64,000 bases of DNA from Halegenticoccus soli (GCF_002844195.1 NZ_PEND01000003.1:496001-560000); one strand, 5' to 3'; numbered from the stretch's first letter, positions 8,967 through 38,263 are shown. The notes: a model not told the origin generated them from the sequence alone. Numbers and translations: made by a program.

Positions 8967-9155
8967 ACGTCCTCTAGCACCTAGTGTGCGGTGTTCCACA
9001 TAACTGTTTTCCCGCCTGTCAGCGCACGACTTCAGTCATGAGCCATCAGTGACAGAATCCGAGGAACTGGCCAGCTTCACCCGTCAGTCATACATAGGCA
9101 TCGCCCAGGTCGTGACCCCATGGCTATATGTGCGGGGTACAAGTATCGGACGACC

Positions 9156-12498: not shown

Positions 12499-14637
12499 AT
12501 GTCACGAATGGTAGAGAGTGTGTCACAGCCTCCGGACCTCGAGCCGCTCCTCTCACCGGACTCGGTCGCGGTCGTCGGCGCAAGCCCCGACTCGTGGTAC
12601 TCCTCACAGCTCATGAACAACCTCCTCGACTACGGCTTCGAGGGCGACGTCTACCCCGTCAACCCGAGCCGCAACGAGGCGTGGGGGCGGCGATGTTACG
12701 ACACGCTGGCCGACCTGCCCGAGACCGTCGACCTCGCCGTCGTGAGCGTCCCGCGCGAGTACGTGATCGACACCGTCCGCGACGCGGGCGAACTCGACGT
12801 TCCGGCCGCGCTGGTCATCACCGCCGGGTTCGGCGAGGCCGACGAGGAGGGCGCCCAATTCGAGCGAGAACTGGCCGAGATCGCCGACGAGTACGGCGTC
12901 CACGTCTGCGGCCCAAACTGCATTGGCCTCGCGAACGCGGTCGAGGGGACTGTCCTGACGAGCACGTGTTCGCGCGCACCCGAACCCGGGTCGGTCGGTC
13001 TGGTGAGCCAGTCGGGCGCGCTCGCGTTCACGACGTTCTACGAGCGGGCGACCGACGAGGACATCCACTTTGCGTACTTGATCTCGACCGGCAACGAGGT
13101 TGACCTCACCCTCACCGACTACGTCGACTACCTAGCCGACCAGCCCGAGGTCGACGTCGTTTGCGCCTACGTTGAGGGCATCGAGGATCCTCTCCGGTTC
13201 ATGCGGGTCGTAGACGAGGCGGTCCGATCCGGCACGCCGGTCCTGACAGTCAAGGTCGGACAGTCCGACATCGCGGAGGCGGCCACCCTCTCTCACACCG
13301 GATCGCTCACCGGCAGCGACGCCGCCTGGGAGGCCGCCTTCGAGCAGACCAGCGTCGAGCGCGTCCCCGACGTACCAGATCTTCTCGCGCGCGCGAGCGC
13401 CCATACTGCATTTGACCCGCCGGAGTCGAACCGCGTCTGCGTCGCCTCGACCAGCGGCGGCCTCGCGAGCCTGCTCGCCGACATGGCTGCCGAACGGGGG
13501 CTCGAACTCCCGGACATCGCCGGCGACACCGAGCGGCGCCTCCTCGACATGGAGAACCTGCTCACGTTCGAGGAGATGCACAACCCGGCCGACATCCGGG
13601 GGTACGGTGCCGAGGTCCTGCCAGAGATCGCCGAGAGCCTCTTCGACGACGACTCGTTCGACGCGTACGTCTTCGCAATCGGTCTCCCAGCCGTCGACGA
13701 GGCTGCGGCCAGGATCGCCGACGACCTCCTAACGGTGAGCCGGATGACCGACGACCCGGTGTTGTTTCTCTGGACCGGTCGGAAGGAGCCCGCAGACCTC
13801 GAGAACCCACAGCCCTACGAACGGGTCCAGACGGAAGTCCCCCTCTACTACGACCCCGGCCGGTGTCTCGACGCAGTCGCCTCGCTCGTCGACGCCGGCG
13901 AGGGCGAGCGTCAAACCTCACCATCGCGGACCGAACTTGAGGAGCAGGTCGGGAACGGCCCCGACCTTGACCTCCCCGAGGGGCGCGTGCTGACCTGGGA
14001 GGAGGCCAGACCGCTGCTCGAGGCATACGACGTTCCGGTCCCCGAAACCGAGGTCGCGACCTCCGCCGACGAGGCGGTCGACTGCGCCGACGAGTTGGGA
14101 TACCCGGTGGTGATAAAGGTCGACTCACCGGACATCCCACACCGGACGGACGCCGACGCGGTCGTCGGCGGCGTCGAAGACGAGGCAGAGGTTCATGGCG
14201 CTTACGAGATCGTCGTCGGGAATGTCGCAGACTACGACCCCGACGCCAAGGTGAACGGCGTGCTCGTCCAGCCGCAGGTCGACGAGGGCGTCGAGGCGCT
14301 CCTCGGCGTCTCGGAGGAGGAGGGCTTCGGTTCGGTGGTGACCGTCGGTCCGGGCGGTACCCTAGTCGAGGTGCTCGAGGACACCGCGGTTCGCGTCCCC
14401 CCACTGTCCGCCGAAGACGCGCGTAGTGCAGTCGAAGAGACGGCGCTCGACGACCTCCTCGTGGGGCATCGGGGCGACGAGGCGGGCGACAAGGCAGCGT
14501 TCATCTCGCTGGCCGAGCGGGTCGGCCTGCTGGCCGCCGAGGTCGACGGAGTTGTCGAGATCGACTTCAACCCTGTGGTCGTCCACGAGGAGGGCGAGGG
14601 GGTCACCGCGCTCGACGTCCTCGTCAGGACGGAGTAG
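12499..14637 (+). CDS. acdA: ADP-forming acyl-CoA (acetyl-CoA) synthetase, fused alpha-beta form
   Basis: This 712-residue enzyme makes ATP from acyl-CoA, ADP and phosphate (acid + CoA released) and is the typical archaeal route to acetate. Domains in order: CoA-binding Rossmann fold (SVAVVGASPDSWYSSQLMNN) at 18-120; succinyl-CoA-ligase-like domain with SQSGALAFTTFYERA; the phospho-histidine segment ATLSHTGSLTGSDAAWEAAF near 255-275; and a C-terminal ATP-grasp domain (GYPVVIKVDSPDIPHRTD, ending in VVEIDFNPVVV). High GC and strongly acidic residues look core-like, unlike the decayed dehydrogenase genes on both sides. It may be the surviving member of an alcohol-aldehyde-acyl-CoA gene group. 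The substrate acid is not determined. Confidence 0.93.
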   Translation: MSRMVESVSQPPDLEPLLSPDSVAVVGASPDSWYSSQLMNNLLDYGFEGDVYPVNPSRNEAWGRRCYDTLADLPETVDLAVVSVPREYVIDTVRDAGELDVPAALVITAGFGEADEEGAQFERELAEIADEYGVHVCGPNCIGLANAVEGTVLTSTCSRAPEPGSVGLVSQSGALAFTTFYERATDEDIHFAYLISTGNEVDLTLTDYVDYLADQPEVDVVCAYVEGIEDPLRFMRVVDEAVRSGTPVLTVKVGQSDIAEAATLSHTGSLTGSDAAWEAAFEQTSVERVPDVPDLLARASAHTAFDPPESNRVCVASTSGGLASLLADMAAERGLELPDIAGDTERRLLDMENLLTFEEMHNPADIRGYGAEVLPEIAESLFDDDSFDAYVFAIGLPAVDEAAARIADDLLTVSRMTDDPVLFLWTGRKEPADLENPQPYERVQTEVPLYYDPGRCLDAVASLVDAGEGERQTSPSRTELEEQVGNGPDLDLPEGRVLTWEEARPLLEAYDVPVPETEVATSADEAVDCADELGYPVVIKVDSPDIPHRTDADAVVGGVEDEAEVHGAYEIVVGNVADYDPDAKVNGVLVQPQVDEGVEALLGVSEEEGFGSVVTVGPGGTLVEVLEDTAVRVPPLSAEDARSAVEETALDDLLVGHRGDEAGDKAAFISLAERVGLLAAEVDGVVEIDFNPVVVHEEGEGVTALDVLVRTE

Positions 14638-17055: not shown

Positions 17056-17955
17056 TTATTCTTCGATGCGTGCCTCAGTCCCAGCAAGACGCTCGAGCAC
17101 CTGAATAACGCCAGAGGTATCGTCACGCCCCAGCCCAATCTCTTCCATCGATTTGTACATTTCATGGGTGAGTTCTGTTGCTGGCATCGGTGATCCATAG
17201 GCCTCGCCTGCGTCCGTGGCGATTCGGAGATCCTTGTACTGGTAAGCGGCGAAGAAACCCGGGTTAAAGTTTCCACGGATCATCCGCGGTGCCCGATTAT
17301 CCAGTGCCCAGCACCCCGCGGCTCCGCCACTTATAGCATCGACGACGGCTTCGAGATCGGCCCCCGCCTTCTTGGCGAACACCAGTGCCTCGCTGATGGC
17401 CTCCATCGTGACAGAGACCACGATCTGGTTGCAGGCCTTTGCAACTTGCCCGGCCCCATTGGTGCCGCAATGGGTGAGAGTCTCGCCCACTGTCTCGAAA
17501 ACATCCCGGTGTTCTTCGAACGTCTCTTCGCTTCCACCGATCATGATGGACAGCGTGCCGTCGATGGCACCCTCCTCGCCCCCACTTATAGGGGCATCTA
17601 GCATCGAAACTCCCTTCTCAGCGAGGCGGTCTGCAATCTGCTTGGCCACGGTTGGCCTGATAGTTGACATATCTACGACGGTGTCTCCGGCCGTCACGCC
17701 GTGGATGATACCGTCGTCACCAAGAATGAGTGCCTCTACGACCTCCGAATCAGAAAGGCAGGTAATCGTTATATCCGCGCGTTCCCCTACCTCCTGGGGT
17801 GTTTCTGCCCGATCGGCTCCTAAAGACACGAGGTTATCGATAGGCTCAGGGGAGCGGTTGTATCCAACGACGGGATAGCCACCTTCAAGGAGATTCTCCG
17901 CCATCGGCTTTCCCATAATTCCAAGGCCTACGAAACCAACTAGTTTATTTGCCAT
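17056..17955 (-). CDS. 2-hydroxy-3-oxopropionate (tartronate semialdehyde) reductase-like beta-hydroxyacid dehydrogenase
   Basis: This 299-residue NAD(P)-dependent enzyme reduces tartronate semialdehyde to glycerate or handles a related beta-hydroxy acid. The Rossmann motif is GFVGLGIMGKPMAENLLEGG at the N-terminus, substrate-binding DAPISGGEEGAIDGTLSIMI near 119-138, and the catalytic Lys in GAGQVAKACNQIVV. The SGGExxAxxGTLSIMxGG form is that of GarR/GlxR rather than 3-hydroxyisobutyrate dehydrogenase. The start at 17955 gives the family N-terminus; the longer frame adds 28 unrelated residues. A GTATAGTAAC box lies about 30-40 bases upstream. It fits glycolate, glyoxylate or C4-acid catabolism. 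Confidence 0.85.
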   Translation of the reverse strand: MANKLVGFVGLGIMGKPMAENLLEGGYPVVGYNRSPEPIDNLVSLGADRAETPQEVGERADITITCLSDSEVVEALILGDDGIIHGVTAGDTVVDMSTIRPTVAKQIADRLAEKGVSMLDAPISGGEEGAIDGTLSIMIGGSEETFEEHRDVFETVGETLTHCGTNGAGQVAKACNQIVVSVTMEAISEALVFAKKAGADLEAVVDAISGGAAGCWALDNRAPRMIRGNFNPGFFAAYQYKDLRIATDAGEAYGSPMPATELTHEMYKSMEEIGLGRDDTSGVIQVLERLAGTEARIEE

Positions 17956-18253: not shown

Positions 18254-19240
18254 TTAGAATGTCCGTTCAATGGCTGCGGTGAGTTCGCTCGTACCTGGCA
18301 GTACCTCATCTTCGAGTGGTGGACTAAACGGAATAGGCGTGTCTGGTACTCCGATACGTTGTGGAGGTGCGTCGAGTGAGAAGAACGCTGACTCAGTCAC
18401 ACGCGAGATGATCTCGCCGTGTAACCCATACGAGAGCGGACTTTCGTCGGCTACAACCAACCGTCCAGTCTTCTCGACGCTCTTGACGATGGTCGCTGTG
18501 TCAAGCGGCGAGAGCGTCTGCGGGTCGATCACCTCAATGTCGATAGCCTCCATTTTGTCGGCCACGCCGATGGCGTCACCGAGCAGGCGTTGCGTGGCTA
18601 CGACGGTAATATCATTGTCTTTGCGAACAATCTGAGCCTGGCCAAGCGGAATCGTGAATTCCTTGTCTTTTGGCACCTCACCTTCACGGTTGTAGATGGT
18701 TTTATTCTCGAAGAATACGATTGGATCATCCGATCGGATAGCTGCCTTCATGAGCCCCTTTGAGCTACGTGCAGTACCGGGGGCGACAGCCTTAATGCCC
18801 GGCAAGTGTGCAATGAGCGTGTGGACGGTACTGGAGTGCTGGGCAGCTGCGCTTAGGCCCGCCCCCTCAATGGCACGCACAGTCAGAGGCACCTTCGTTG
18901 CCCCTCCGAACATATATCGCATCTTCCCAGCTTGATTCATCAGCGGCTCGAAACAAATAGCGATGAAGTCCGCAAAACTCAAATTCACAATTGGTCGCAA
19001 ACCTGTAGCGGCTGCTCCAACGCCGGCACCTACTTGGGCGGTTTCACTGATTGGCGTGTCCCGCACACGGCCCCGGCCGAACTCCTCGAAGAGCCCCATC
19101 GTGATCTCAAACGAGCCGCCGTCCTCCTCGTCCTGTCCCATGAGAAAGACCTCATCATTAGCCATGAGTTCCTCACGGATAGCAGTCCGGAGCGCCTCGC
19201 GGATCGTTAATTCTTCTGTCAATTCAGTCACGTCACTCAT
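18254..19240 (-). CDS. 2-oxoacid (pyruvate/acetoin) dehydrogenase E1 component, beta subunit
   Basis: This 328-residue transketolase-like protein forms the E1 heterotetramer with the upstream alpha subunit. The family hallmarks are FLMGQDEEDGGSFEITMGL, RVRDTPISETAQVGAGVGAA, the FEPLMNQAGKMRYMFGG segment, and the C-terminal VIDPQTLSPLDTATIVKSVE and VVADESPLSYGLHGEI. It overlaps the alpha gene by 8 bases, so translation is coupled. No E2 lipoyl-transacetylase or E3 gene is in the window, so the enzyme must borrow them or work differently. A ruined paralogue lies at 26690-27614. Confidence 0.9.
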   Translation of the reverse strand: MSDVTELTEELTIREALRTAIREELMANDEVFLMGQDEEDGGSFEITMGLFEEFGRGRVRDTPISETAQVGAGVGAAATGLRPIVNLSFADFIAICFEPLMNQAGKMRYMFGGATKVPLTVRAIEGAGLSAAAQHSSTVHTLIAHLPGIKAVAPGTARSSKGLMKAAIRSDDPIVFFENKTIYNREGEVPKDKEFTIPLGQAQIVRKDNDITVVATQRLLGDAIGVADKMEAIDIEVIDPQTLSPLDTATIVKSVEKTGRLVVADESPLSYGLHGEIISRVTESAFFSLDAPPQRIGVPDTPIPFSPPLEDEVLPGTSELTAAIERTF

Positions 19241-20285
19241 ACATCATCACCTCTGTAAGAGTTTTTTCTGCTCTGCGTTGATTTCGGAAGTAGTCAATGT
19301 CGGAGCTCCCTTCGACGAATACATCGTCGTAGGCACATTCAGGATTGGGGAATGTCTGGTTGCGTGCGTATGTGACAGCATCCTCAACTTCGGCAACCAC
19401 TTCACTGCGCATATTAGCATACGCCGCACCGGTTAAATTCCTCTCTTCACGGAGTTGCGCTGCAAATGTGTCTATTGGATCCCGGTTTTCTCGCCACTCG
19501 TTTACCTCCTCTTCGCTCCGATAGGATTCAGGATCACCCTCATAATGTCCACGGAACCGGTAGGTCTTTGCCTCGATGAAGGTAGGACCGTCGCCCGCGG
19601 CGGCGCGTTCACGAGCGGTAGAGACGGCATCGTACACCGCAGTAACGTCCATTCCGTCGACAATAACGCTAGGAATGCCGTATGCCGCCGCACCATCGGC
19701 CAAATCATCGATGTTGTGCTGCTTCTCAAAACTCATCCCCTCAGAGTAGAGATTATTTTCGACAAGATAGACGGCGGGAAGATTCCACGTAGCAGCGAGG
19801 TTGATGGATTCATGTACTTGCCCTTCGGCAACTGCCCCGTCGCCGAGGAATGAGAGTCCAACCCAGTCTTTGTCGCGTATCTCTGCTGTGAGCGCCGCCC
19901 CGGTGGCGAGTGGGACCCCTGCGCCGACGATAGGTTGGGCGCCGAGTAACCCGTCGCTGAGCGATGCAGCGTGCATTGATCCACCTTTTCCCTCGCAGCA
20001 CCCTGTTTCACGACCGTAGAGTTCAGCCATAAGTCGATTAAGGTCAAGGCCCTTTGCAAGACAATGACCGTGTCCGCGATGAGTGCTTGTCACATAGTCA
20101 TCGCGTTCGAGCGCGCAGCACGCGCCGACTCCAACCGCTTCCTGCCCAATATAGAGATGCACGAACCCGGGAATCTCCCCGTCGGCGAAATTCTTGAGTA
20201 CGGCCTTTTCGAACTCTCTAATCGTCAGCATCTGGCGAAGGGCGTGACGTCGACCGTCTGGCTCACCTATGTCAACAGATGGCAT
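19233..20285 (-). CDS. 2-oxoacid (pyruvate/acetoin) dehydrogenase E1 component, alpha subunit
   Basis: This 350-residue thiamine-diphosphate subunit starts at 20285 (MPSVDIGEPDGRRHALRQML); the longer frame adds 57 residues unlike the family. The TPP motif runs from FLGDGAVAEGQVHESINLAA to VYLVENN. FIEAKTYRFRGHYEGDPESY contains the phosphorylation-loop-like region, and GAQPIVGAGVPLATGAALTA is typical of the PDHA/AcoA branch. A CTCTTATTC box is about 30 bases upstream on the minus strand. Pyruvate, acetoin and branched-chain 2-oxoacids are all possible substrates. The downstream beta gene completes E1. Confidence 0.9.
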   Translation of the reverse strand: MPSVDIGEPDGRRHALRQMLTIREFEKAVLKNFADGEIPGFVHLYIGQEAVGVGACCALERDDYVTSTHRGHGHCLAKGLDLNRLMAELYGRETGCCEGKGGSMHAASLSDGLLGAQPIVGAGVPLATGAALTAEIRDKDWVGLSFLGDGAVAEGQVHESINLAATWNLPAVYLVENNLYSEGMSFEKQHNIDDLADGAAAYGIPSVIVDGMDVTAVYDAVSTARERAAAGDGPTFIEAKTYRFRGHYEGDPESYRSEEEVNEWRENRDPIDTFAAQLREERNLTGAAYANMRSEVVAEVEDAVTYARNQTFPNPECAYDDVFVEGSSDIDYFRNQRRAEKTLTEVMMYE

Positions 20286-20513
20286 GCGATACGTAAATGT
20301 CCATCTACAACCGAATAAGAGTTCTGCTGGTTCAAAAAACGCCCCGTCAGTTAAATACTCCAAGTGCAGTATTGCACGCCGTCCACGCGGACACCTCAGG
20401 CGCAACCAACTACGCGTTCGAAACGCCGCAGAGTCGTCGGTGGACGCATTGGACACGCGCCGCTAGCCGATGTGAGATTCGGAGTCTCCACGGTCACTTT
20501 GCGTGGAAACCCG

Positions 20514-21914
20514 TTACTTGAGGCGCCGTTGTTCGGAGTTTGGAACGCATCGGCGAACCCGCTCGAAGTACTTTTCGTCGCCGATCTGACCGCCTTTCAG
20601 GGCAATCTCCAGTCCGTCGAACTGTCCCGTGCGGGCGCTCGCGCGACAGAGCGGCGCCCCAGGGAAGATCGGGGCAATCATCTCGACGGCGTACACATCG
20701 AGCGCCGGTGTAGCGTAACTGCTAGTGTCGCCGCCGGCGATGCAGACCCGCGAGGTATCCGTCCGCTCGAGAAATTCTCGGAGTAGTCGCCCCTGTTGTC
20801 GTCCGATCCGCCGGGCGACAGCTTCGGGAGGGATACCAAGGTCCTTGGCTTCCGCTCGCGTCTCCTCGATGGCGGGATCGTCGGGCCCGCGAGCCGTGTA
20901 GAGGATCGTCCCTCGGTGTTTCCGTATGGCCTCGGTCGCGCGTCTGATTGCGTTGGCTCCCTCGTCGTCGGCCTTGTCTGGATCGATTAGAGCGGTCGTG
21001 TCGAGCTTGATGTCCGCGTATCCGTGGTCGAGGGCCCACTCGATCTGCTCTGCGGTGACGGGCGAGGCACTCCCCGAAATAACGACGAGCGAATCAACCT
21101 CGGGGACCTGAGCGTCGCCGACGCGGTTGAATGCGAGGCCGACATCCTGCCAGTACGCCCCTAAGGCGTAGTCAAAGCCGGACGAACCGACTCCGAACGT
21201 CATTCCCCCGCCGTTCGTGGTGCGCTCCCAGATGACTCGTCCGAGAGTTGCGAGGTGATCGTCGGTTAACGTGTCGAAGATCACGATTTCTCCGTCCTCT
21301 TGCGCTTTCCGGACTGCGCGCCGCGCGCCCTCAACGCCGTGATCCACATCGATAACTGTGACCCCGGTGATCGACCGGTCGGTCTGTTCTCCGAGGTGAC
21401 GAGCGAGGTCGCTCTCGGTCATGGGGGTGGCTGGGTGCGTTCGCATCGTCGGGTGTCGGTCCAGCCGATAGGTCTCGTCGTCGACCGTCGCGAAGAGGTT
21501 CCCGAAGACGACGTACCTTCCTTGCGGTTCCATCGGGGGCACCCCGACGACGACAGGAACGAATGACGAGTCAAAAACGTCCTGGCCGATATCGATCGCG
21601 CGGCCGATGCTCCCCCGATCCGGCGCTGAATCGAACGTCGAGCAAACCTTGTACTGGAACAAGGTCGGATCAAGGTCCTCAATCGCCTTGAACGTCTCCC
21701 GCAGATGCACGTCCATCTCCACAGGCGTCATTGACCGGCTCTCTCCCGCGACGCCGATCGCCTGTAGGTCGGCGAAGCGACCGGTGAGATCGTCGGACCC
21801 TGGAGGTTCGAGAAAGAGCGCGGTCCGGACTCCGTGTCGGCTGAGCGCCTCAAGCGCGTCCGTGGAACCGGTGTAGTCGTCGCCGTAGTACGCTAGTAGC
21901 AAGTTGTCAGTCAT
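20514..21914 (-). CDS. Four-carbon acid sugar kinase family protein (DUF1537; OtnK/OiaK-like)
   Basis: This 466-residue kinase of the DUF1537 family phosphorylates acid sugars such as threonate, erythronate or 3-oxo-isoapionate. The N-terminal domain opens AYYGDDYTGSTDALEALSR, with the DDxTG motif that binds the acid sugar. The C-terminal nucleotide-binding domain has VCIAGGDTSSYATPALDV. The start at 21914 overlaps the end of the RuBisCO-like gene by 4 bases (ATGA), a strong sign of coupled translation and joint function; the much longer open frame upstream is antisense noise inside that gene. A kinase next to a RuBisCO-like protein is the arrangement of OiaK with OiaX/OiaT in D-apionate catabolism. 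Substrate assignment is inference. Confidence 0.85.
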   Translation of the reverse strand: MTDNLLLAYYGDDYTGSTDALEALSRHGVRTALFLEPPGSDDLTGRFADLQAIGVAGESRSMTPVEMDVHLRETFKAIEDLDPTLFQYKVCSTFDSAPDRGSIGRAIDIGQDVFDSSFVPVVVGVPPMEPQGRYVVFGNLFATVDDETYRLDRHPTMRTHPATPMTESDLARHLGEQTDRSITGVTVIDVDHGVEGARRAVRKAQEDGEIVIFDTLTDDHLATLGRVIWERTTNGGGMTFGVGSSGFDYALGAYWQDVGLAFNRVGDAQVPEVDSLVVISGSASPVTAEQIEWALDHGYADIKLDTTALIDPDKADDEGANAIRRATEAIRKHRGTILYTARGPDDPAIEETRAEAKDLGIPPEAVARRIGRQQGRLLREFLERTDTSRVCIAGGDTSSYATPALDVYAVEMIAPIFPGAPLCRASARTGQFDGLEIALKGGQIGDEKYFERVRRCVPNSEQRRLK

Positions 21915-23173
21915 CGTTCGTAGTATTCGATCGCCGTCGCGAGTTCTTCGCAGGTCTGTGCATACTCCTCCAGGGGAACGCCGCGTAGTGCGGCGTCCCA
22001 TCCTTGACGGATGTGGGCGACGCCTGCGGCGGGGCCGTCCGGATGACCCAGAATCCCACCTCCGGCGAGATACATGAGGTCCGTATTTCCAAGCGCCTCG
22101 TACGTGTCGTGGGCCTGCCCCGCCCACTGACGCGAGGAAAACACCGGCATCGCGGTATCGTCCTCGTCAACGATCGGCGTCTGGCAGGCTTGCGCCGACG
22201 CGACGACCGACTCGTTCGACTCAGCGAACTTGTTTCGAAGGCCGTTGACGTGGAGGTGATCGACGCCGGCGAGGCGATAGAGTTTCTGGAAGACCCCGTA
22301 GTCGAACCCGAGCTGTGGGCACCGCGAGAGGCCTCCCCAGCCGTTTCGGTGCCCGTGAATTGGGAGATCACACTCACGCCGAAGTTTCCTCACGCCGGCC
22401 AGTCCGACGCTGTTGACGCTCACCATTACACAGTTACCGCCCGCATCGGTGATGCAATCAGACAGTTCCAGCATCTCGTCGACATCGCCGGTGATGTTAC
22501 ACGCGTACATCACTTCCGTTCCAGTTCGATCGCGGTGGGCGTCTACGACCGACATCACTTCGACGATTCTGTCTTCGACCGGTGAGTACGGCGGATTCGC
22601 GAGAAGTTCGTCGTCCTTGACGAAATCCACGCCTGCTTCGACGACGGTTTCAACCCTATCGGCCGTTTCTTCGGGGCTCAACCCCACGTTCGGCTTGATG
22701 ATCGTTCCGATGATCGGACGCTCCCACACGTCGAGTATCTCGCGCGTCCTGTCGATGCCGAACTGTGGGCCTGGATACTCGCGGGCCAGCGAATCCGGAA
22801 CATCGACATCGACGAGACGAATCCCCGAGAGCTCCTGAAGTTCGAACAGGTTTCCCCCGACCGTCGTAAGGAGGTTCGGAAGAGACGCTCCAATGTTCGC
22901 GAGTGGATACGAGATGACTACTTCTGCCTGGGTGTACGTCGGCGACTGGGCGTTGGACGGTGATATCGATCCCGGCAGCGACGGCTGCTCGGTCGATCCG
23001 CGTTCCTCGATACGTTCGACCGTCGCTCCGTGGCGCTCGCGCAACTCGTTGGTCTCTCCCGGCACATCGACGAAGGTTCCGGAGGACTGCTCGTCGGCCA
23101 TGGCCTCTGCCGCGTCCGCGACGCCGGATGGGGTCTCAATCCAGTACATCGCCTCCACGCGCTCATTTGGCAT
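21911..23173 (-). CDS. RuBisCO-like protein (form IV), candidate 3-oxo-isoapionate-4-phosphate decarboxylase or hydrolase
   Basis: This 420-residue protein has the RuBisCO large-subunit fold. The N-terminal domain opens with YWIETPSGVADAAEAMADEQ and SSGTF. Barrel motifs: Lys160 in GTIIKPNVGLSPEE; GVDFVKDDELLANPPYSP with Lys186 at the carbamate position plus Asp188 and Glu189 as metal ligands; His275-Arg276 in IHGHRNGWG; a loop-6-like stretch NGLRNKFAESN; and AGGGILGHPDG where genuine RuBisCO has SGG. The metal site is kept but the phosphate-binding serine and loop 6 differ, so carboxylation of ribulose bisphosphate is unlikely. The overlapping DUF1537 kinase downstream points to the RuBisCO-like enzymes of D-apionate breakdown, which decarboxylate or cleave 3-oxo-isoapionate 4-phosphate. 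I cannot distinguish those two reactions. Confidence 0.9.
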   Translation of the reverse strand: MPNERVEAMYWIETPSGVADAAEAMADEQSSGTFVDVPGETNELRERHGATVERIEERGSTEQPSLPGSISPSNAQSPTYTQAEVVISYPLANIGASLPNLLTTVGGNLFELQELSGIRLVDVDVPDSLAREYPGPQFGIDRTREILDVWERPIIGTIIKPNVGLSPEETADRVETVVEAGVDFVKDDELLANPPYSPVEDRIVEVMSVVDAHRDRTGTEVMYACNITGDVDEMLELSDCITDAGGNCVMVSVNSVGLAGVRKLRRECDLPIHGHRNGWGGLSRCPQLGFDYGVFQKLYRLAGVDHLHVNGLRNKFAESNESVVASAQACQTPIVDEDDTAMPVFSSRQWAGQAHDTYEALGNTDLMYLAGGGILGHPDGPAAGVAHIRQGWDAALRGVPLEEYAQTCEELATAIEYYER

Positions 23174-23773: not shown

Positions 23774-24544
23774 TCAGGAATGTGTTATGTTAAGCTCAAT
23801 TACATTCACGGCGTTCTGTATTTTTCGGGGGAGCGTCTCTTCTAGCCGTTCGCCCCGCATCCGACAACTCGGGCCGGCGATACTGATCGCTCCTTCGACG
23901 GTTGTACCGTTGTTCAGGATCGGTACCGCCACGCCCTGAAGTCCGTCGAGATACTCTTCCATGTCGAGTGCGTACCCCTGCTCGTGGATCCGGTTGAGTT
24001 CCTCGAACAATTCCTTGCGATCAGTGATTGTGTTGTCGGTTCTCGCCGGCAGTCCGTGGCGGTCAATGATCGACTCCACTTGTTCTCGATCCATGTACGC
24101 CATGATCGCCTTTCCGAAGGCAGTCTGGTGGAGGTGGACGAACATCCCGGTCGAAGTATCCAGCTTCACGGCCTTCGTCCCCTTTTCCCGACAGAGGTAG
24201 ATCCCCTTTCCTTGTTCCTCGACCAGGAGGTTGACGACCTCCCCCGTCTCATCGGCCAACCGTTCGACTTCGGGTTTACTGATTTCGAATAACTTCCGTC
24301 GGCGTCGAGCGTACGCGCCCAATTCTAAGAATTTGAGCCCGACGTGGTACTGCTGGCCATGCTTCATAACGTATCCCTCGTGGCGGAGGGTGTCGAGATA
24401 ATTATGGACGCTGCTCTTCGAGAGGTTTAGGTGGTTAGCTACCTCCGTGATGCCCGCCCCGTCAAGTTCTTTCAGTGCCTCCACGATTCGGAAGGTGGTC
24501 CTTGACGATTTGATTGGGTGCTTTGCTTCCTTTGCTTGTGACAT
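23774..24544 (-). CDS. IclR-family transcriptional regulator
   Basis: This is a 256-residue regulator. The winged-helix domain contains TEVANHLNLSKSSVHNYLDT and ends in GYVMKHGQQYHVG; the effector domain has HQTAFGKAIMAYMDREQVES and GVAVPILNNGTTVEGAISIA, and the terminal RLEETLPRKIQNAVNVIE helix is complete. The start at 24544 is chosen because a TATTTATG box lies about 30 bases upstream; an alternative ATG at 24559 would be too close to that box. It is transcribed toward the RuBisCO-like/kinase pair on the same strand with a 600-base gap, making these genes its probable targets. The effector is unknown. Confidence 0.9.
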   Translation of the reverse strand: MSQAKEAKHPIKSSRTTFRIVEALKELDGAGITEVANHLNLSKSSVHNYLDTLRHEGYVMKHGQQYHVGLKFLELGAYARRRRKLFEISKPEVERLADETGEVVNLLVEEQGKGIYLCREKGTKAVKLDTSTGMFVHLHQTAFGKAIMAYMDREQVESIIDRHGLPARTDNTITDRKELFEELNRIHEQGYALDMEEYLDGLQGVAVPILNNGTTVEGAISIAGPSCRMRGERLEETLPRKIQNAVNVIELNITHS

Positions 24545-24572
24545 GGCGTGTTCTACCATGGCACGTATTCTA

Positions 24573-24580
24573 CATAAATA
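24573..24580 (-). promoter_or_regulatory. TATA box of the IclR regulator gene
   Basis: TATTTATG on the minus strand, centred 32 bases before the ATG at 24544. Confidence 0.55.
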
Positions 24581-24912
24581 TTCCTCATTGTGTAACAGGA
24601 GTTTGGAATCGGAGAAACCGGCTTGATCCGATTTCAAGTGCCACGAGAGTCCCCTCCGTCGTCCGCGAGATCTCTAATCGGGGCAGTTCCTCTCTACCGG
24701 GTCGATTCGCCGTTCGGTTTGAGCAAGTCTCAGCGCACGCTCGACAAGAATCGAGATACGGCGGTCACCCCGCGTCTCCGAGCGCTCCTGACAAGGTCCG
24801 ACGCGGTAATCAAGCGCCCAACCGTTGACGCTACGTGATAAATTCTAAACGGCGTCGGCGAACGGCTGACAGGAGTCTCCGGGATCGACACGGAGTTCGC
24901 GGGCAGAATCGT
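24581..24912. other. Stretch without a supported gene
   Basis: Only short frames without recognisable motifs are present. Confidence 0.4.
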
Positions 24913-25635
24913 TCATCGTGCTGACGTGCCCTGTTCGCCACGAGGACAGAGCCTCCCCGATTTGGCGCTGCGATTGTCGACGGCGACCGAGGGGATATCC
25001 CGATCGGCGAGGTTCGGAAGGCGGCTCACGCCTGCGCCGTCGGCGCCGAAACCAACGTCGTTGAACGTGATGCCCGCCACGTCAGCGGAGACGTAGGATC
25101 CGTGGCGCTCCTCGTCCGGGAGTCTCCCGCCGTGGCTCCCGGTTACGACGACGTCGGCGCGATCGTCCGTCCGTCCAGAGCATGGAAACAGAATCGAGCG
25201 CCCAGACAGGTCGCCGTCGCCGCCTCGAAGGAGGTGTCGCATCTGTCCGTATCCCAGCAGATCCGTCTCCGGCGGGTCAGCCGCCACCATCAACGACGTG
25301 CACTCGCTGGTCGACTGGTCGGGTTTACAGCCGAGAGCGGTCGTCGTTTCATTTATGTGGCTGATCTGTCCCTGCCGGCAGCAGTCGTCCCCGTCGCCGA
25401 TTCGTACGCTCGTGTTGGCAACCATTACGTAGGGACGGGAGTGTTCGTCGAGCAGCGACAGTGGCCCGATTCTCGCTCGATCCCCGACGACGACGGCGTC
25501 GTTCAGGATCACCCGCGGACCCCGGCCTTGACCGTGCGGTACCCGGCGCGTACTCGTTCCGGTGGCTGGCGGCGACGACGATCTTATCGCGATGGGAATC
25601 GTCGACGCGGGTGATCGTGTGAAGTATCTCCACCA
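24913..25635 (-). pseudogene. Decayed gene of an unrecognised family with two internal repeats
   Basis: Reading starts near 25635 (MVEILHTITRVDDSHRDKIV) and needs one frameshift near 25540 to continue as RVILNDAVVVGDRARIG, LSLLDEHSRPYVMVANTSVR and IGDGDDCCRQGQISHINET. The second half (ADVVVTGSHGG, AGITFNDVGFGADGAGVSRL, RDIPSVAVDNRSAKSG) repeats the pattern of the first: a VVxxSHxxxY/G strand, ILNDxGxGxDxAGI, a leucine-rich helix, an IPxVxVxxxSxRxG strand. The protein therefore looks like a tandem duplication of an approximately 100-residue alpha/beta module. I do not recognise a named family. Frameshift and rough C-terminus suggest a broken gene. It lies divergent from the SDR at 25778. Confidence 0.55.
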
Positions 25636-25777: not shown

Positions 25778-26563
25778 ATGGATGGCATAACATTCGATTT
25801 TAACGGAAAGGTCGCCGTAGTCACGGGCGGCAGTTCCGGCATCGGTCGGGCCATCGCGACCCAGTTTGGCGCGGCGGGAGCGACCGTGATCAACGCCGAC
25901 CTCCGAGCCAAACCGAAGGCGCCGACCGAGACGGTGCCGACCCACGAGTCGATCGAGGACGACGGCGGTCGAGCGGCTTTCGTCGAAACGGATGTCTCGA
26001 ACCCCGAGGACCTCGCTACGGTGATCGAGGCAGCCCGCGAGTACGGCGGCGTCGACGTCATGGTGAACAACGCCGGCATCCACCGGTCTGGATCGGTGCG
26101 GGAGGTTACCGTCGAGGATTACGAACACGTCGCCTGCGTCAACACGAAAGGCGTCCTCTTCGGATGTCAGGTGGCGGCCAACGATATACAAGCGCGCGGC
26201 AGCGGTGGGTCGATCATCAACACAGCCTCGATCAGATACGACACGGCGTTGCCTGACCAACTCCTCTACAACATGAGCAAGGGCGCCGTCGGAATGATAA
26301 CTCGAAGCGCGGCGATGGAACTGGTCGACGATGGGATTCGCGTCAACGCCATCGCGCCGGGGCGGACCGTGACGTCGATTACAGGCAACGCCGAGCACGC
26401 AGAGAAAATGGCCGACGAGGGATCGCTCGTGAAGCCGATTCCGATAGACCGAGTCGCCGATGCCGACGAGATCGCGCCGGCGGTGCTCTTTCTTGCGAGC
26501 TCCGCAGCATCGTACGTCACCGGGGAGATCTTCGTCGTCGATGGCGGATGGAGCATCTACTGA
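25778..26563 (+). CDS. Short-chain dehydrogenase/reductase (SDR), classical type
   Basis: This 261-residue NAD(P)-dependent oxidoreductase is probably a sugar or polyol dehydrogenase. The cofactor motif is VVTGGSSGIGRAIATQFG, NNAG occurs in VMVNNAGIHRSG, the active-site pair is Tyr-x-x-x-Lys in LLYNMSKGAVGM, and the C-terminus has YVTGEIFVVDGGWSIY. A 15-residue insertion (KPKAPTETVPTHESIEDDGG) after the second strand is longer than usual; the acidic Asp of INADLRAK at the end of that strand suggests NAD preference. It is divergent from the decayed repeat gene and is followed by the ruined E1 beta copy. The specific alcohol is unknown. Confidence 0.88.
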   Translation: MDGITFDFNGKVAVVTGGSSGIGRAIATQFGAAGATVINADLRAKPKAPTETVPTHESIEDDGGRAAFVETDVSNPEDLATVIEAAREYGGVDVMVNNAGIHRSGSVREVTVEDYEHVACVNTKGVLFGCQVAANDIQARGSGGSIINTASIRYDTALPDQLLYNMSKGAVGMITRSAAMELVDDGIRVNAIAPGRTVTSITGNAEHAEKMADEGSLVKPIPIDRVADADEIAPAVLFLASSAASYVTGEIFVVDGGWSIY

Positions 26564-27649: not shown

Positions 27650-27671
27650 CCTTGTGAGCGCGTTCGTTCGT

Positions 27672-28442
27672 ATGGCTTTCCGAATCGACGGCAAGACGGC
27701 CATAGTCACCGGAGCGGCACAGGGAATCGGACGGAGCATCGCGGATGTACTGGGCGAAAACGGCGCGAACGTCGTCATCGCGGACGTGAACGGGGAGAAA
27801 GCCGAGAAAGCGGCGGCCGAACTCCGACGGGAGAGCACCGAGGCACTAGCGGTGACTTGCGACGTGACCTCCCGCAAGGACGCCGCGGCGCTCACGGACG
27901 CGACGCTCGAGGAGTTCGATTCTGTCGACGTGCTCGTCAACAACGCGGGCGTCGCAGAGGGCGAATCGTTTGGAGAACTCTCCCCGGACGAATGGCAGGG
28001 GGTTCTCGACGTCAACCTGACCGGCATGTACAACGTCTCCTCAGAGATCGTCCCAGCCATGGCCGCGCAGGATGACGGTCGTATCGTAAACGTCGCCTCG
28101 ATCGCCGGTCTGAATCTCAGCTACGAAGGACCAGCAAACTACACCGCGTCAAAGTGGGGTGTGATCGGTCTTACGAAGCACATGGCCTGGGACCTCGGAG
28201 ACGATGGGATCCGAGTGAACGCGCTCTGTCCCGGCGGCACGCTGACTCCGCTGATCGAGCAAGCCACGACCGAGGAGAGCCGCGAGCACACGCGGGAAAA
28301 GATCCCCGCAGGGCGGTGGGCGGAACCACGGGACCATGGGTACGCGGTTCTCTATCTCGTCTCCGACGAGGCAGCGTACGTCACGGGTACGACTCTCGTG
28401 GTCGACGGCGGCCTCACGCTGAGCGTCCGCCACGAAGTGTGA
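27672..28442 (+). CDS. Short-chain dehydrogenase/reductase (SDR), glucose/ribitol type
   Basis: This classical SDR has 256 residues. Motifs are TGAAQGIGRSIADVLGENG for cofactor binding with VVIADVNGEK (acidic residue selecting NAD), LVNNAGVAEGES, catalytic Ser in VNVASIAGLN, YTASKWGVIG with the Tyr-Lys pair, and the C-terminal VTGTTLVVDGGLTL. The start at 27672 is set by the TATA box and the N-terminus MAFRIDGKTAIVTG; upstream codons in the frame are not family-like. It is followed after 50 bases by the zinc dehydrogenase gene with its own promoter. Sugar or sugar-acid oxidation is likely, substrate unknown. Confidence 0.9.
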   Translation: MAFRIDGKTAIVTGAAQGIGRSIADVLGENGANVVIADVNGEKAEKAAAELRRESTEALAVTCDVTSRKDAAALTDATLEEFDSVDVLVNNAGVAEGESFGELSPDEWQGVLDVNLTGMYNVSSEIVPAMAAQDDGRIVNVASIAGLNLSYEGPANYTASKWGVIGLTKHMAWDLGDDGIRVNALCPGGTLTPLIEQATTEESREHTREKIPAGRWAEPRDHGYAVLYLVSDEAAYVTGTTLVVDGGLTLSVRHEV

Positions 28443-28492: not shown

Positions 28493-29584
28493 ATGGCGAG
28501 GTCCGACAGTGCAACCTCGATGGTACTGAGCGACGTCGGCGAACTCCGTCCGCGCGAATTCGACGTCCCCGACGTGGATGATGGCGGCATGCTGCTGGAC
28601 GTAGAGATGACCTCCGTCTGTGGGACGGACATCGGGATATACACTGGCGAGTCCTACCACAATACGTTCCCGCTCGTCTTCGGCCACGAGGTGGTGGGCT
28701 GCATCGCCGACGGCGATCCCGAGACCCTCAACCGCGTCGGCGTCGAGGTGGGCGACAGGATCATACCGGAACCGTACATCCCTTGCTACGAGTGTCACTA
28801 CTGCCAGACCGGAAACTACCACATGTGCGACGAGGGTCGGTGTTACGGCGTCACAATCTCGGCGGACGTCCCGCCGCACCTCTGGGGCGGATACGGGGAG
28901 TACATGTACCTTGACCCGAACACGAGAGCGCATCCCGTTCCCGACGGCGTCCCGGCCGAGGCGGCGTGTCTGGGGACGGTCGTGGGCAACGGTGTCCGGT
29001 GGATTCTGACGAAAGGAGACGTCGATCCCCAAGAGGACATCGTCATTGTCGGACCGGGGGCGCAGGGTCTCGCCTCGGTGATCGTCGCAGACGAGGCGGG
29101 CGCCGATAGACTCGTCCTCGCCGGCCTTTCTTCGGACGACCAGCGCCTTCGCCTGGGTGAGTCCTTCGGCGCTACGGACGTGATTCATGTTGACGAGGGC
29201 GACCCCGTGGAGGAGATCGCCACCCTCACTGATGGCGACGGTCCGGAGGTAGTCGTGGTTACCGCGCCGTCCTCGAAGGCGCTCCAGTTGGCTGTCGACG
29301 TGGTCGCACCCCTCGGGAAGATCGTCCTTCCGGGTATCATGGGGACGGAAACGGAACTCGACACTGATCGACTGGTTCACGACGAGATCCAGTTGCTCGG
29401 CGGACGCGGTCAGGCACACAACGTGGAGCGGGCGATGGCCATCCTCGAAAGGCGTGCGGACGATGTGGCCGCGATCAACACACACACCTTCCCGGTTTGG
29501 GAGGCCGAGACCGCGATCGAACGCCAGCTCCCCGGCGACGAATTTGACCACGAAATCATCCATGCGGCGTTGCATCCCGAGTAA
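28493..29584 (+). CDS. Zinc-dependent medium-chain alcohol/sugar dehydrogenase
   Basis: This 363-residue MDR enzyme is complete. Catalytic zinc ligands are Cys in SVCGTDIGIYTG and the His-Glu pair in FGHEVVGCI; four structural-zinc cysteines are in PYIPCYECHYCQTGNYHMCD. The cofactor fold is IVIVGPGAQGLASVIVADEA. The threonine/sorbitol dehydrogenase branch is the best match. It would oxidise a sugar or polyol in the pathway formed with the neighbouring SDRs and the RuBisCO-like/kinase pair. It is convergent with the amidase gene, leaving 3 bases between stop codons. The intactness contrasts with the broken homologue at 14690-15783. Confidence 0.9.
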   Translation: MARSDSATSMVLSDVGELRPREFDVPDVDDGGMLLDVEMTSVCGTDIGIYTGESYHNTFPLVFGHEVVGCIADGDPETLNRVGVEVGDRIIPEPYIPCYECHYCQTGNYHMCDEGRCYGVTISADVPPHLWGGYGEYMYLDPNTRAHPVPDGVPAEAACLGTVVGNGVRWILTKGDVDPQEDIVIVGPGAQGLASVIVADEAGADRLVLAGLSSDDQRLRLGESFGATDVIHVDEGDPVEEIATLTDGDGPEVVVVTAPSSKALQLAVDVVAPLGKIVLPGIMGTETELDTDRLVHDEIQLLGGRGQAHNVERAMAILERRADDVAAINTHTFPVWEAETAIERQLPGDEFDHEIIHAALHPE

Positions 29585-31267: not shown

Positions 31268-32443
31268 TTACTGTCCGGCGCGCCGGGTCTCCACGGTTTC
31301 GGCTACCTCGTCGCTGTCCAAATACCCGCGGGAGAACCGCTCGCCCGTCCGCCGATTGAACAGATAGGTGGCCGCCACCTCAGGAACGATCGTCGCCTCG
31401 TTGCCCTCGGGGATCTCTGTGTCGATGGGGACGACCGCCCGAAGTTCCCCCTGCGGTCCCTCAAGGTACATCAGCGTCTCGTCGCCAAGGGGCTCGTGCA
31501 GCGAAACTGTCGTTTCGATCCCCGGGGCGGACCCCTCCGCGGCCTCAACCTTACGAGGACGGAATCCTAAGACGGCGTCCTTGTCGGCCTTCTCGGGGAG
31601 GTACTCACCGGTTTCGAACGCCAGACTCGGTCCACCTTCGATGTCGACCACCGTCCGAGCCTCGTCGATGTCGACAACAGTGGCGTCGATCATGTTAATC
31701 TCAGGTGAGCCAATAAACTGCGCCACGAAGCTATTTGTGGGTTCTTGATATACTTCCTGCGGAGTACCAACCTGCTCAATCTTTCCATCGTTCATCACGG
31801 CAATCTTGTCCGACATCGTCATTGCTTCCTCCTGATCATGGGTGACGTAGATGATTGTCGCATTGAGTTCTTGATGAATCTTGCCGAGTTCCTTGCGCAT
31901 CTGGCGCTTGAGTTTCGCGTCCAAGTCGCTCATCGGCTCGTCCATGAGGAAGGCGACAGGGTCGCGGACAATGGCGCGGCTGATGGCAATACGCTGTTGC
32001 TGCCCACCGGAGAGTTCACCAGGGTACTTGTCAAGAAGGCCGTCAACTTGGACAATTTCGGCGGCCCGCTCAACTTTCTCTGTTCGCTCGTTGCGTGTCA
32101 TCCCAGCTAATTTGAGAGGGTATTCGATATTTTTCCGCGCCGTCATGTGGGGGTAAAGTGCTGTCCGCTGGAACACCATCGCCAAATCGCGGTCTTGCGG
32201 CGCTGTATTGAGCGCGTTTTCTCCTTCGAGGAGAAGTGTCCCCTCGGTCGCTGTCTCAAGTCCTGCGATGCATCGTAGGGTCGTCGTCTTTCCACACCCG
32301 CTAGGTCCGACTAGTGTGACAAATTCGCCTTCGTTGATTTCAAGATCTATACCGTCGACTGCAACTTCGACGCCCGTTGGGACATCGAACTCTTTACGTA
32401 GGTCCTGAAGCGCTATCTGGGTGTTATTTTCACTCTGACTCAT
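31268..32443 (-). CDS. Sugar ABC transporter ATPase, MalK/UgpC type (second system)
   Basis: This 391-residue cytoplasmic ATPase has Walker A GPSGCGKTTTLRCIAG, Q-loop FQRTALYPHMTAR, signature LSGGQQQRIAISRA, Walker B VAFLMDEPMSDLDAKL and switch IYVTHDQEEAMTM. The C-terminal regulatory domain has VLGFRPRKVE. It begins one base after the upstream MalG-type gene ends, as the last gene of a four-gene importer. The frequent ISRAIVRDP-type features and length are normal for MalK proteins. With the ATPase at 7827-8966 the window has two complete CUT1 systems. Confidence 0.94.
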   Translation of the reverse strand: MSQSENNTQIALQDLRKEFDVPTGVEVAVDGIDLEINEGEFVTLVGPSGCGKTTTLRCIAGLETATEGTLLLEGENALNTAPQDRDLAMVFQRTALYPHMTARKNIEYPLKLAGMTRNERTEKVERAAEIVQVDGLLDKYPGELSGGQQQRIAISRAIVRDPVAFLMDEPMSDLDAKLKRQMRKELGKIHQELNATIIYVTHDQEEAMTMSDKIAVMNDGKIEQVGTPQEVYQEPTNSFVAQFIGSPEINMIDATVVDIDEARTVVDIEGGPSLAFETGEYLPEKADKDAVLGFRPRKVEAAEGSAPGIETTVSLHEPLGDETLMYLEGPQGELRAVVPIDTEIPEGNEATIVPEVAATYLFNRRTGERFSRGYLDSDEVAETVETRRAGQ

Positions 32444-32444
32444 A

Positions 32445-33344
32445 CTATAGGCCTCCAGTTCGGAATCCTTCGAGGATGCTCTCTTGTAATTTGTACACGA
32501 GTAGGAACGGGGGAATAGACATTAGCACCGATGCTGCCATAATTTGTCCCCAGTAGACTGTGTTCTGTTCAGTAAACGTCTGTACTGCGGGTGGGAGTGT
32601 CTGCATCGACTGGTTAGGGAGGAGAATCGTAGCCATTGTGAAGTCGTTCCAACTGACCGCAAACGTGAAGATGGCGACGGCTACCATCCCTGGTTTCGCC
32701 ATTGGAATCGCAACGTCCTTGAAGGAGTGGAATCTGGATGCACCGTTCATCCATGCTGCTTCCTCATACGCAATGGGTACTGTCTGGAAGAACTTCCACA
32801 TCATCCACATTCCAAACGGTAACGAAAGCGCAATATGGGCGATTGCGATTCCGTGATAGGTGTTCAGCCATCCTATCTGCTGCCATATCTGATACTGCGG
32901 GAACGCTAATAGGATCGGGGGGAACATGTAGCTAAACAAGATGAGCCGAGCAAATGTCTTACGACCCCGGAATTCCACGCGCGTCAACCCGTATCCCGCA
33001 AGTGTCGAGGCGGCCACGGTCACAATGATAGCGATGATGGCCACCACGATACTATTGAAGTACCATCGATCGAAGGCTCGATTGACAAAGATCTGAACGT
33101 ACGATCCAATGGTCACTTGTGAAAGGACGTCGAGTGGGACCCAAGTGGGATTTTGGATAATCGCGTCGTATGGTTGGATCGACGCCACTATCATCCAATA
33201 GACAGGGAACATAAAGAGTAAACACGTTACTGTTACCAACACGTAGAGTCCGTATTTACGGAGCTTCTGTTTCTGCCTAAAGGGAAGCTTATCTGAGTCG
33301 GTTAACGACGCGATTTGATTGGCAATCCTATCAGTGTATACCAT
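32445..33344 (-). CDS. Sugar ABC transporter permease, MalG type (second system)
   Basis: This 299-residue membrane protein has six helices; the first, after a 28-residue charged N-terminus, is YGLYVLVTVTCLLFMFPVYW. The ATPase-docking loop is EEAAWMNGASRFHSFKDVAI (EAAxxxG form), and the C-terminus ends LQESILEGFRTGGL as in MalG proteins. It overlaps the MalF-type gene by one base and is followed immediately by the ATPase, so all are cotranscribed from the binding-protein promoter. AT content is a little higher than in the first importer, suggesting a different origin. Confidence 0.93.
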   Translation of the reverse strand: MVYTDRIANQIASLTDSDKLPFRQKQKLRKYGLYVLVTVTCLLFMFPVYWMIVASIQPYDAIIQNPTWVPLDVLSQVTIGSYVQIFVNRAFDRWYFNSIVVAIIAIIVTVAASTLAGYGLTRVEFRGRKTFARLILFSYMFPPILLAFPQYQIWQQIGWLNTYHGIAIAHIALSLPFGMWMMWKFFQTVPIAYEEAAWMNGASRFHSFKDVAIPMAKPGMVAVAIFTFAVSWNDFTMATILLPNQSMQTLPPAVQTFTEQNTVYWGQIMAASVLMSIPPFLLVYKLQESILEGFRTGGL

Positions 33345-34300
33345 TACCTTCCCACCTCCTCAGCCGGACTGAAGCCGGCGAAGTAGATTATTGCACCGAA
33401 CCCGAGGAACACGAATAAAGTCCCAGCGATGGCGCCAGCTGTGCCAAGGTTAAAGTTGAGAAACGCAGTCTCATAAATATAGACTGGGAGCGTGGCAGTT
33501 TCGTCTCCAGGACCTCCGCCAGTTGTGACCCAGATAATATCGAACTTGTTAAACATCCAGATACCCCGCAACAGGAGAACGAGTAGGATGACTCCTTTGA
33601 TCTGAGGAAAGGTGACGTCTCTGAACTTCCGAAGCGGTCCTGCACCGTTCATGGTTGCTGCTTCGTAATATTGCTGAGGAATGGACTGGAGTTTAGCGAG
33701 AACCATAATAGTAATGAAAATAGCAAATTTCCAACTGTTGAGAACGATGAGGCTAATCATGGCAAGATCAGAGTTTGAGAGCCAATTGACGGGGGTATTG
33801 ATGAGGCCAAGATCCATGAGGAAGACGTTTAAGATTCCGTAGCTCCCGTTAAGCATGAGTCGGAAAACCAACGCTACTACAACCGTGGGGATAAGGTACG
33901 GGAGGAAAATCATCGCGCGAGCAAGGATGACTCCTCGAAACTCACGTGATAGCATCAACGCGACCCCAACCCCGACTACGAGTTGGAGACCTACAGAACC
34001 GAACCCGAATATCAGACTCCGCTTAAAGGCATTCCAGTATGACTGACTCTCCATCAAACTCACATAGTTTTCCATTCCTACCCACGTCCAAGAGGGGCTA
34101 AGTGCGCTGGCTTCGTGGAAGCTAAGGTTGAGCGCCCAGATGACAGGTAGGAACGCAGCCAAGATCATTAACGCTAGGGCCGGGCCGATGGTCATTCCCA
34201 ACAATAGTGAGTCACGTTCAAACAGTGACGAGAGAACTCGCTCGGAGGATCGTCGGGTCTTGCTTAGGCGGTCTAACACTGTGTCGTCAATTGTACTCAT
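33344..34300 (-). CDS. Sugar ABC transporter permease, MalF type (second system)
   Basis: This 318-residue permease has an N-terminal charged region, a first helix at LLLGMTIGPALALMILAAFL, and the docking loop YYEAATMNGAGPLRKFRDVT (EAAxxxGA form). The WVTTGGGPGDETATLPVYIY segment is typical of MalF/UgpA. It starts 108 bases after the binding-protein gene and overlaps the MalG gene by one base. Only ordinary CUT1 features are seen, and substrate cannot be deduced. Confidence 0.93.
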   Translation of the reverse strand: MSTIDDTVLDRLSKTRRSSERVLSSLFERDSLLLGMTIGPALALMILAAFLPVIWALNLSFHEASALSPSWTWVGMENYVSLMESQSYWNAFKRSLIFGFGSVGLQLVVGVGVALMLSREFRGVILARAMIFLPYLIPTVVVALVFRLMLNGSYGILNVFLMDLGLINTPVNWLSNSDLAMISLIVLNSWKFAIFITIMVLAKLQSIPQQYYEAATMNGAGPLRKFRDVTFPQIKGVILLVLLLRGIWMFNKFDIIWVTTGGGPGDETATLPVYIYETAFLNFNLGTAGAIAGTLFVFLGFGAIIYFAGFSPAEEVGR

Positions 34301-34408
34301 GCGTGTAACTCACTGATTGCCTGATTTCGGATTGAGCTCTCATAATTGGGCGTCCCTGGATGCGTCCTGTGATTATTTGTGATCTTCATGAATGTTAATT
34401 TGGAACTT

Positions 34409-38141: not shown

Positions 38142-38263
38142 GGATGGGGCTTCGTGTCTCTTGCCCAAATAGGCTCCGTCGAAGATCCATCATTACGAGA
38201 AATGCCATATTAGCTAACACTCCCACAACTTATTTAAGCCCCTTTATTGTGACTTGTAACCGT

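Follow-up and report, generated by a model that had tools for sequence, protein, structure and literature searches.

The window analyzed here is a stretch of 64,000 nucleotides from Halegenticoccus soli (GCF_002844195.1, NZ_PEND01000003.1:496001-560000). On its minus strand, a gene for a RuBisCO-like protein (RLP) is followed by a gene for a DUF1537 kinase. The RLP starts with the ATG at 23173 and ends with the TGA at 21913-21911, and the ATG of the kinase occupies 21914-21912. The four-base ATGA overlap given in a preliminary description of this DNA was confirmed in the sequence; the term "fused" used there does not apply, as the genes overlap without any fusion. Of 15 annotated relatives, 11 show an overlap of 4 or 8 bases as well (ATGA, GTGA, or ATGACTGA), which indicates that translational coupling is widespread among such pairs. 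In Pfam, the RLP matched RuBisCO_large (242.9 bits) and RuBisCO_large_N (38 bits), and the kinase matched SBD_N (184 bits) and NBD_C (122 bits). The features of the window are summarized in Table 1.

Table 1. Features of the RLP/kinase region and its surroundings in the window.
Feature	Position	Strand	Basis
RuBisCO-like protein (RLP), OiaX/OiaT superclade, 420 aa	21911..23173	-	Pfam, NCBIfam, trees, residues
DUF1537 (SBD_N/NBD_C) kinase, OiaK-like, 466 aa	20514..21914	-	NCBIfam, tree
ATGA overlap, RLP stop/kinase start	21911..21914	-	Sequence; recurs in relatives
E1 alpha, 2-oxoacid-dehydrogenase-type enzyme, downstream of kinase	19233..20288	-	Pfam E1_dh; conserved in G233, G278
E1 beta subunit	18254..19240	-	Pfam Transket_pyr, Transketolase_C
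Tartronate-semialdehyde-reductase-like dehydrogenase	17056..17955	-	TIGR01505 322 bits, cut-off 340.75; 64% in G264 near G264 RLP
ADP-forming acyl-CoA ligase	12499..14637	+	Pfam; 61-72% in DRL+ relatives
SMP-30/gluconolactonase-like protein	9120..10022	+	Pfam SGL
IclR-family regulator	23774..24637	-	Pfam IclR_C, HTH_IclR
Remnant of hypothetical protein (~267 aa), apparently frameshifted, upstream of IclR gene	24925..25566	-	tblastn 34-40%
SDR dehydrogenase 1	25778..26563	+	Pfam adh_short_C2
SDR dehydrogenase 2	27654..28442	+	Pfam; NF005559 260 bits, cut-off 215
MDR zinc dehydrogenase (Tdh-like)	28493..29584	+	Pfam; 57-65% in DRL+ relatives
ABC sugar importer: ATPase, two permeases, binding protein	31268..35866	-	ATPase: Pfam/NCBIfam; others: homology, gene order; conserved in G233, G281
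3-hydroxyisobutyrate-dehydrogenase-like protein	38126..39220	+	Pfam NAD_binding_2; 68% in G233
Aldehyde dehydrogenase	39322..40785	+	Pfam Aldedh; 75% in G233
VOC-family protein, upstream of DRL	41253..41561 (extent of tblastn match)	+	tblastn 33-38% to VOC proteins of RLP loci
DRL: DXR-II-like oxidoreductase (PF21135 + SAF), proposed ApnO replacement	41669..43015	+	Pfam 177 bits; Brucella 3UPY 232 bits; ApnO complementarity
3HCD: 3-hydroxyacyl-CoA-dehydrogenase-family protein, DRL neighbor	43506..44456	-	Pfam; co-occurrence

Among the neighbors named in the preliminary description, the lactonase is the SMP-30 protein, which is located about 10 kb from the pair and is not an ApnL-type D-apionate lactonase. 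The region also contains an apparently broken zinc dehydrogenase gene in three reading-frame pieces (14694-15783, minus strand) and an interrupted second copy of the E1 beta gene (26703-27608, plus strand), both of which may reflect decay or sequencing errors. The hypothetical protein of about 267 aa, of which the window holds a remnant, belongs to no clear Pfam family. In Haloterrigena, Haloarcula, and Natronosalvus, its gene immediately precedes that of the RLP, and relatives are found at L200:11137-11940, L203:19128-19934, and L216:11115-11921.

The top NCBIfam matches were OiaX (NF042437) for the RLP and OiaK (NF042436) for the kinase, each with 479 bits and a cut-off of 700. Positive controls passed this threshold, with 779 bits for OiaX of Shinella (L053) and 822 bits for OiaK of Paraburkholderia (L210). 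As both proteins stay below the equivalog cut-offs, they are relatives, not certified members, of the OiaX/OiaT and OiaK families, and the earlier reading as OiaK with OiaX or OiaT is not supported as stated. Scores with other models were lower still. The kinase reached 185 bits with 3-oxo-tetronate kinase and 78 bits with threonate kinase, and the RLP 275 bits with the form III RuBisCO model TIGR03326 (cut-off 497) and 206 and 171 bits with the MtnW models (cut-offs 409 and 514).

In a maximum-likelihood tree, the RLP fell into a superclade (support 100/100) with canonical OiaX, PDB 3NWR, and the RLP of L210, apart from haloarchaeal form III RuBisCO; the only OiaT anchor of this tree is L210, an OiaT by inference. 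The kinase clustered with the partners of other haloarchaeal RLPs and then with Chloroflexi kinases. The relationship to OiaX/OiaT and OiaK proposed in the preliminary description was thus borne out, with the kinase placed among OiaK-like proteins and not with 3-oxo-tetronate kinase. The contrary outcome named there, with the RLP among form III carboxylases or in an unrelated clade and the kinase among ordinary threonate or erythronate kinases, was not seen. On scores, residues, and tree, we rejected form III RuBisCO or MtnW as the family of the RLP, and on scores and tree 3-oxo-tetronate or threonate kinase for its partner. When the tree was rooted on form III, which forms a long outgroup branch, bacterial RLPs were nested among the haloarchaeal ones. 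Haloarchaeal monophyly was not rejected (AU p 0.33) and, given this value and the long outgroup branch, we do not claim that the OiaX/OiaT clade as a whole arose in archaea. An archaeal RLP from a Methanonatronarchaeales MAG (L072:9944-11194) branches between form III and the superclade; it has kept SGG and has no adjoining kinase.

The RuBisCO residues N123, K175, K201, D203, E204, H292, H294, R295, H327, K334, S379, and GGG403-405 have equivalents in the RLP (N108, K160, K186, D188, E189, H273, H275, R276, H308, K315, S347, and G371-373, respectively). Changes were found at K177, which is Asn, and at G380-G381, which are Arg-Gln. The metal ligands Lys186, Asp188, and Glu189 are therefore as first described. 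The assertion that the SGG motif and loop 6 have changed needs correction: the loop 6 lysine (K315) is kept, and of SGG the Ser (S347) is kept and the two glycines are changed. In the canonical OiaX clade, positions 123 and 327 are Gly and Gln, whereas the window RLP has Asn and His and so departs from the OiaX residue pattern. N123 and H327 are both kept in the haloarchaeal RLPs and in those of L196-L199, L209-L215, and L217, and the N123/H327/K334 pattern of the window RLP is the same as in the inferred OiaT of L210. The position of Gly380, in a phosphate-binding loop of RuBisCO, is Arg348 in the window protein alone and Gly or Ala in its relatives.

An OiaX-like RLP was found in 11 of 391 haloarchaeal genomes with 461-515 bits, all remaining matches being below 200 bits. 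The OiaK-like kinase was present in 14 of the 391, including all 11 with the RLP (hypergeometric p 5e-19, with no account taken of genome relatedness). This co-occurrence and the recurring overlap rule out that the two genes are chance neighbors. Halomarina halobia, in addition to the 391-genome set, is a twelfth haloarchaeal RLP genome. The pair was also found on further plasmids, and named examples of plasmids with it come from Haloterrigena, Haloarcula, Halalkalicoccus, Natronosalvus, and Natronococcus. Far from being unique to the window, the pair is hence a variant that recurs among haloarchaea, and the suggestion of a first archaeal route of this kind is not supported as stated. Among the papers searched, none on haloarchaeal apiose use was found.

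Several loci depart from the common arrangement. Halomarina halobia NZ_CP119993.1 carries the RLP/kinase region (L035, L036) and the DRL gene (matches G392:C2) twice on one plasmid. In G122 (L128), the kinase (C2:660671) and ApnO (C2:662126) occur without an RLP, and the adjoining gene, assigned by eye, is DhnA/class I aldolase-like and followed by a permease; this aldolase-like gene may replace the RLP. G056 (L126) and G100 (L127) have an OiaK-like kinase but neither RLP nor ApnO nor DRL; both carry an Asp/Glu-racemase-like gene in its vicinity, and G056 additionally has a class II aldolase-like gene there.

ApnO-like proteins, which combine PGDH_C with a KARI-like N-terminal domain, were detected in 7 of the 14 kinase-bearing haloarchaea. 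Among 312 sampled haloarchaea, ApnO occurred in only five, all of them kinase-bearing. The presence of ApnO in six haloarchaeal RLP genomes, and its detection in none but kinase-bearing haloarchaea, tie the pair to apionate-type chemistry in Archaea. The window genome itself showed no ApnO beyond a weak NAD-domain match of 23.6 bits. For ApnL, no match was obtained in the 14 genomes searched, including the window genome, and the control genomes gave no positive in that same search; with hmmscan, the ApnL model scored 822 bits for L053 and 770 bits for L210. As neither ApnO nor ApnL was found, we rejected the presence of a full canonical apiose locus in this genome, and the D-apiose route proposed earlier is not recognizably encoded there in its known D-apiose/D-apionate form.

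The most informative neighbor of the pair is DRL, which the preliminary description did not mention. Six of the 12 RLP genomes have ApnO without DRL (G197, G106, G192, G312, G026, and G345), and the other six have DRL without ApnO (the window genome, G233, G281, G264, G278, and Halomarina). The two are complementary in all 12 genomes (Fisher p 0.002, a value that ignores relatedness and refers to a split found post hoc in the data). DRL_cat proteins occur in 16 of 391 haloarchaeal genomes and are enriched in those with the RLP (p 2e-5, relatedness ignored). In five of the six DRL-bearing RLP genomes, DRL is 6-22 kb from the kinase; in Halomarina, each of the two DRL copies has an RLP copy at a distance of about 15 kb. 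Mapped onto the RLP tree, the ApnO/DRL distribution requires four changes, and grouping all DRL-bearing genomes in one clade was disfavored (AU p 0.02, post hoc). In the kinase tree, Natronosalvus and Halomarina (DRL) cluster with Haloterrigena and Haloarcula (ApnO) with support of 100/98. Natronosalvus also shares a block of SDR, VOC, hypothetical, RLP, and kinase genes with the latter two. Most simply, these data would mean that the RLP and kinase have one substrate, which either ApnO or DRL can supply. DRL may take the place of ApnO and feed the pair via a different carbon-skeleton rearrangement; we found no earlier report of such an exchange of the upstream oxidoisomerase.

Our working hypothesis, in which we place somewhat more belief than doubt, is that the kinase and an OiaT-type RLP act on 3-oxo-isoapionate or a very close branched 3-oxo acid supplied by DRL, not by ApnO. 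The kinase would phosphorylate C4 of this acid. The RLP would bind the monophosphate via a carbamylated lysine and Mg2+ (K186, D188, E189) and then break it down, with cleavage to 3-phosphoglycerate and glycolate being more likely than decarboxylation to L-erythrulose 1-phosphate. In the window genome, the substrate would be made without ApnO, the candidate supplier being DRL, probably together with 3HCD. In favor of this hypothesis, OiaX and OiaK are the best NCBIfam matches by a wide margin. Against it count the scores below the equivalog cut-offs, the absence of ApnO and detectable ApnL from the window genome, and the lack of a linkage to pyruvate kinase and enolase genes in most loci, the window included. 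The earlier interpretation is partly supported, being right in outline.

The type of RLP reaction was judged from residues and gene context. OiaT forms 3-phosphoglycerate and glycolate, and OiaX forms L-erythrulose 1-phosphate. Two ways in which RLPs act on 3-oxo-isoapionate 4-phosphate have been described, one a decarboxylation and the other a transcarboxylation/hydrolysis (Carter 2018, cited in PMC6302742). L210 from Paraburkholderia sprentiae is a full apiose-type locus, in which ApnL and OiaK pass their cut-offs and an ApnO-like PGDH_C protein and a Gfo/Idh dehydrogenase are encoded. Its RLP keeps N123 and, with 444 bits, fails the OiaX cut-off. With two RLP activities described for the substrate, this RLP is, by elimination, probably an OiaT. 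In five loci (Haloterrigena KLK7, Cupriavidus pinatubonensis, Cupriavidus KK10, Azospirillum, and Bradyrhizobium), a pyruvate kinase gene is found no more than about 10 kb from an N123-keeping RLP, and the first three also have enolase nearby; neither gene was found beside the canonical OiaX loci examined. Most loci, including that of the window, lack this context; where present, it agrees with the formation of 3-phosphoglycerate by N123-keeping RLPs. Since N123 and H327, lost in the canonical OiaX clade, are kept, and since some relatives adjoin pyruvate kinase and enolase genes, OiaT-type cleavage appears favored for the window RLP over OiaX-type decarboxylation.

Decarboxylation of the same substrate, with release of CO2 and passage of L-erythrulose 1-phosphate to tetrulose-phosphate isomerases or a class II aldolase, would agree with OiaX being the top NCBIfam model and with the class II aldolase genes that Natronococcus, Natronoglomus, and Halomarina carry close to the pair. 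We regard it as unlikely: the states at 123 and 327 are unlike those of the canonical clade, and TIM-like genes adjoin three canonical OiaX loci and no N123-keeping RLP, the reverse of what was observed for pyruvate kinase. The third conceivable activity, CO2 fixation on ribulose bisphosphate by a true form III-like RuBisCO, could explain why most catalytic residues are retained (the equivalents of K175, K201, D203, E204, H294, R295, H327, and K334). It is nevertheless extremely improbable in view of the TIGR03326 score, the lost K177 and altered SGG, the well-supported split from haloarchaeal form III, and the strict pairing with an OiaK-like kinase; carboxylation had already been called unlikely in the preliminary description.

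The substrate itself could also differ. In DRL-bearing genomes, the pair might act on the 4-phosphate of another branched or linear 3-oxo acid, with DRL belonging to that pathway and 3-oxo-isoapionate not being involved. Neither ApnO nor ApnL was detected in the window genome, which suits this alternative, as does the set of MDR, ligase, 3HCD, and E1 genes that DRL-bearing genomes share and that was not seen near the pair in most ApnO-bearing ones. DRL and 3HCD moreover occur without an RLP in G324. The intermixing of both states on the RLP and kinase trees, catalytic residues identical except for R348, and the gene block common to Natronosalvus, Haloterrigena, and Haloarcula speak for a shared substrate, however, and a separate one seems improbable to us.

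As archaeal isoprenoids come via mevalonate, isoprenoid synthesis is an unlikely role for DRL. In DXR-type chemistry, a carbon group is shifted onto a neighboring ketone and the resulting aldehyde is reduced. DRL keeps Arg320 of DXR-II, but Thr229 is replaced by Val (Pro in G264), so the residue pattern of DXR-II is incomplete. Thr229 has been tied to DXR-II function, and the related DLO families (DLO1/DLO2) are uncharacterized (PMC3847144). In a class sample, 3HCD was present in all five genomes with DRL and RLP compared to one of six with ApnO and RLP (p 0.015, relatedness ignored). DRL and 3HCD are close neighbors in the window, G264, G324, and G304. It is conceivable, if rather doubtful, that DXR-II-like proteins are a second, non-homologous group of carbon-skeleton-rearranging dehydrogenases that feed OiaK and the RLP. 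By a DXR-type shift in which COOH replaces CH3, DRL would convert a linear 2-oxo-pentonate to 2-C-(hydroxymethyl)tetronate, which 3HCD, acting as a 3-hydroxyacid dehydrogenase, would oxidize to 3-oxo-isoapionate. Two observations count against this scheme: DRL and 3HCD are present in G324 although both RLP and kinase are missing there, and DRL genes are also found near E1/E2/E3 dehydrogenase genes. For these reasons, DRL may be part of another pathway in the same island. The window contains a GH51-like alpha-L-arabinofuranosidase gene (5483-7006) and the SMP-30 lactonase gene beside a second ABC sugar importer (2212-10022), a region that is a possible pentonate source for the proposed DRL route.

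At least 12 haloarchaeal genomes are seen here to carry apiose-type RLP/kinase genes, which none of the papers searched reports, and the analysis provides a residue-and-context hypothesis for separating OiaT-type from OiaX-type RLPs. Upstream of one RLP/kinase pair, two unrelated families of rearranging enzymes, the KARI-like ApnO and the DXR-II-like DRL, appear to be naturally swapped, which opens the function of orphan DXR-II-like oxidoreductases to direct tests. If DRL does feed the pair by the proposed shift, the use of RuBisCO-like chemistry would extend beyond apiose to a linear sugar acid, and some uncharacterized DXR-II-like oxidoreductases would have a first function.

Compared to known systems, the pair resembles the bacterial OiaT/OiaK/ApnO system in the retention of N123 and H327, in the overlapping or nearby kinase, in its superclade, and in the presence of ApnO in half of the haloarchaeal RLP genomes. 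It differs in the lower score of its kinase (479 vs. 822 bits for a certified OiaK) and in a window genome that has DRL but no ApnO and no detectable ApnL; the RLP matched no NCBIfam OiaT model, and its likeness to OiaT refers to the inferred OiaT of L210. With OiaX (3-oxo-isoapionate-4-phosphate decarboxylase), the RLP shares 45% identity to the certified Shinella protein as well as K175, K201, D203, E204, and K334, but neither the Gly and Gln at 123 and 327 nor a score above 700 bits. Haloarchaeal form III RuBisCO shares the fold and the metal ligands with the RLP at about 33% identity; it is separate on the tree, and the RLP differs from it in the K177 and SGG changes and the paired kinase. 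The window DRL is similar over its full length to Brucella DXR-II/DRL (3UPY, 3UPL), with Arg320 kept, but has Val at Thr229. The best solved relative of the RLP is the Burkholderia fungorum RLP (PDB 3NWR; E 3e-124, full length), which belongs to the same superclade and keeps N123, H327, and K334, but falls into a different subclade and has Gly where the window RLP has Arg348.
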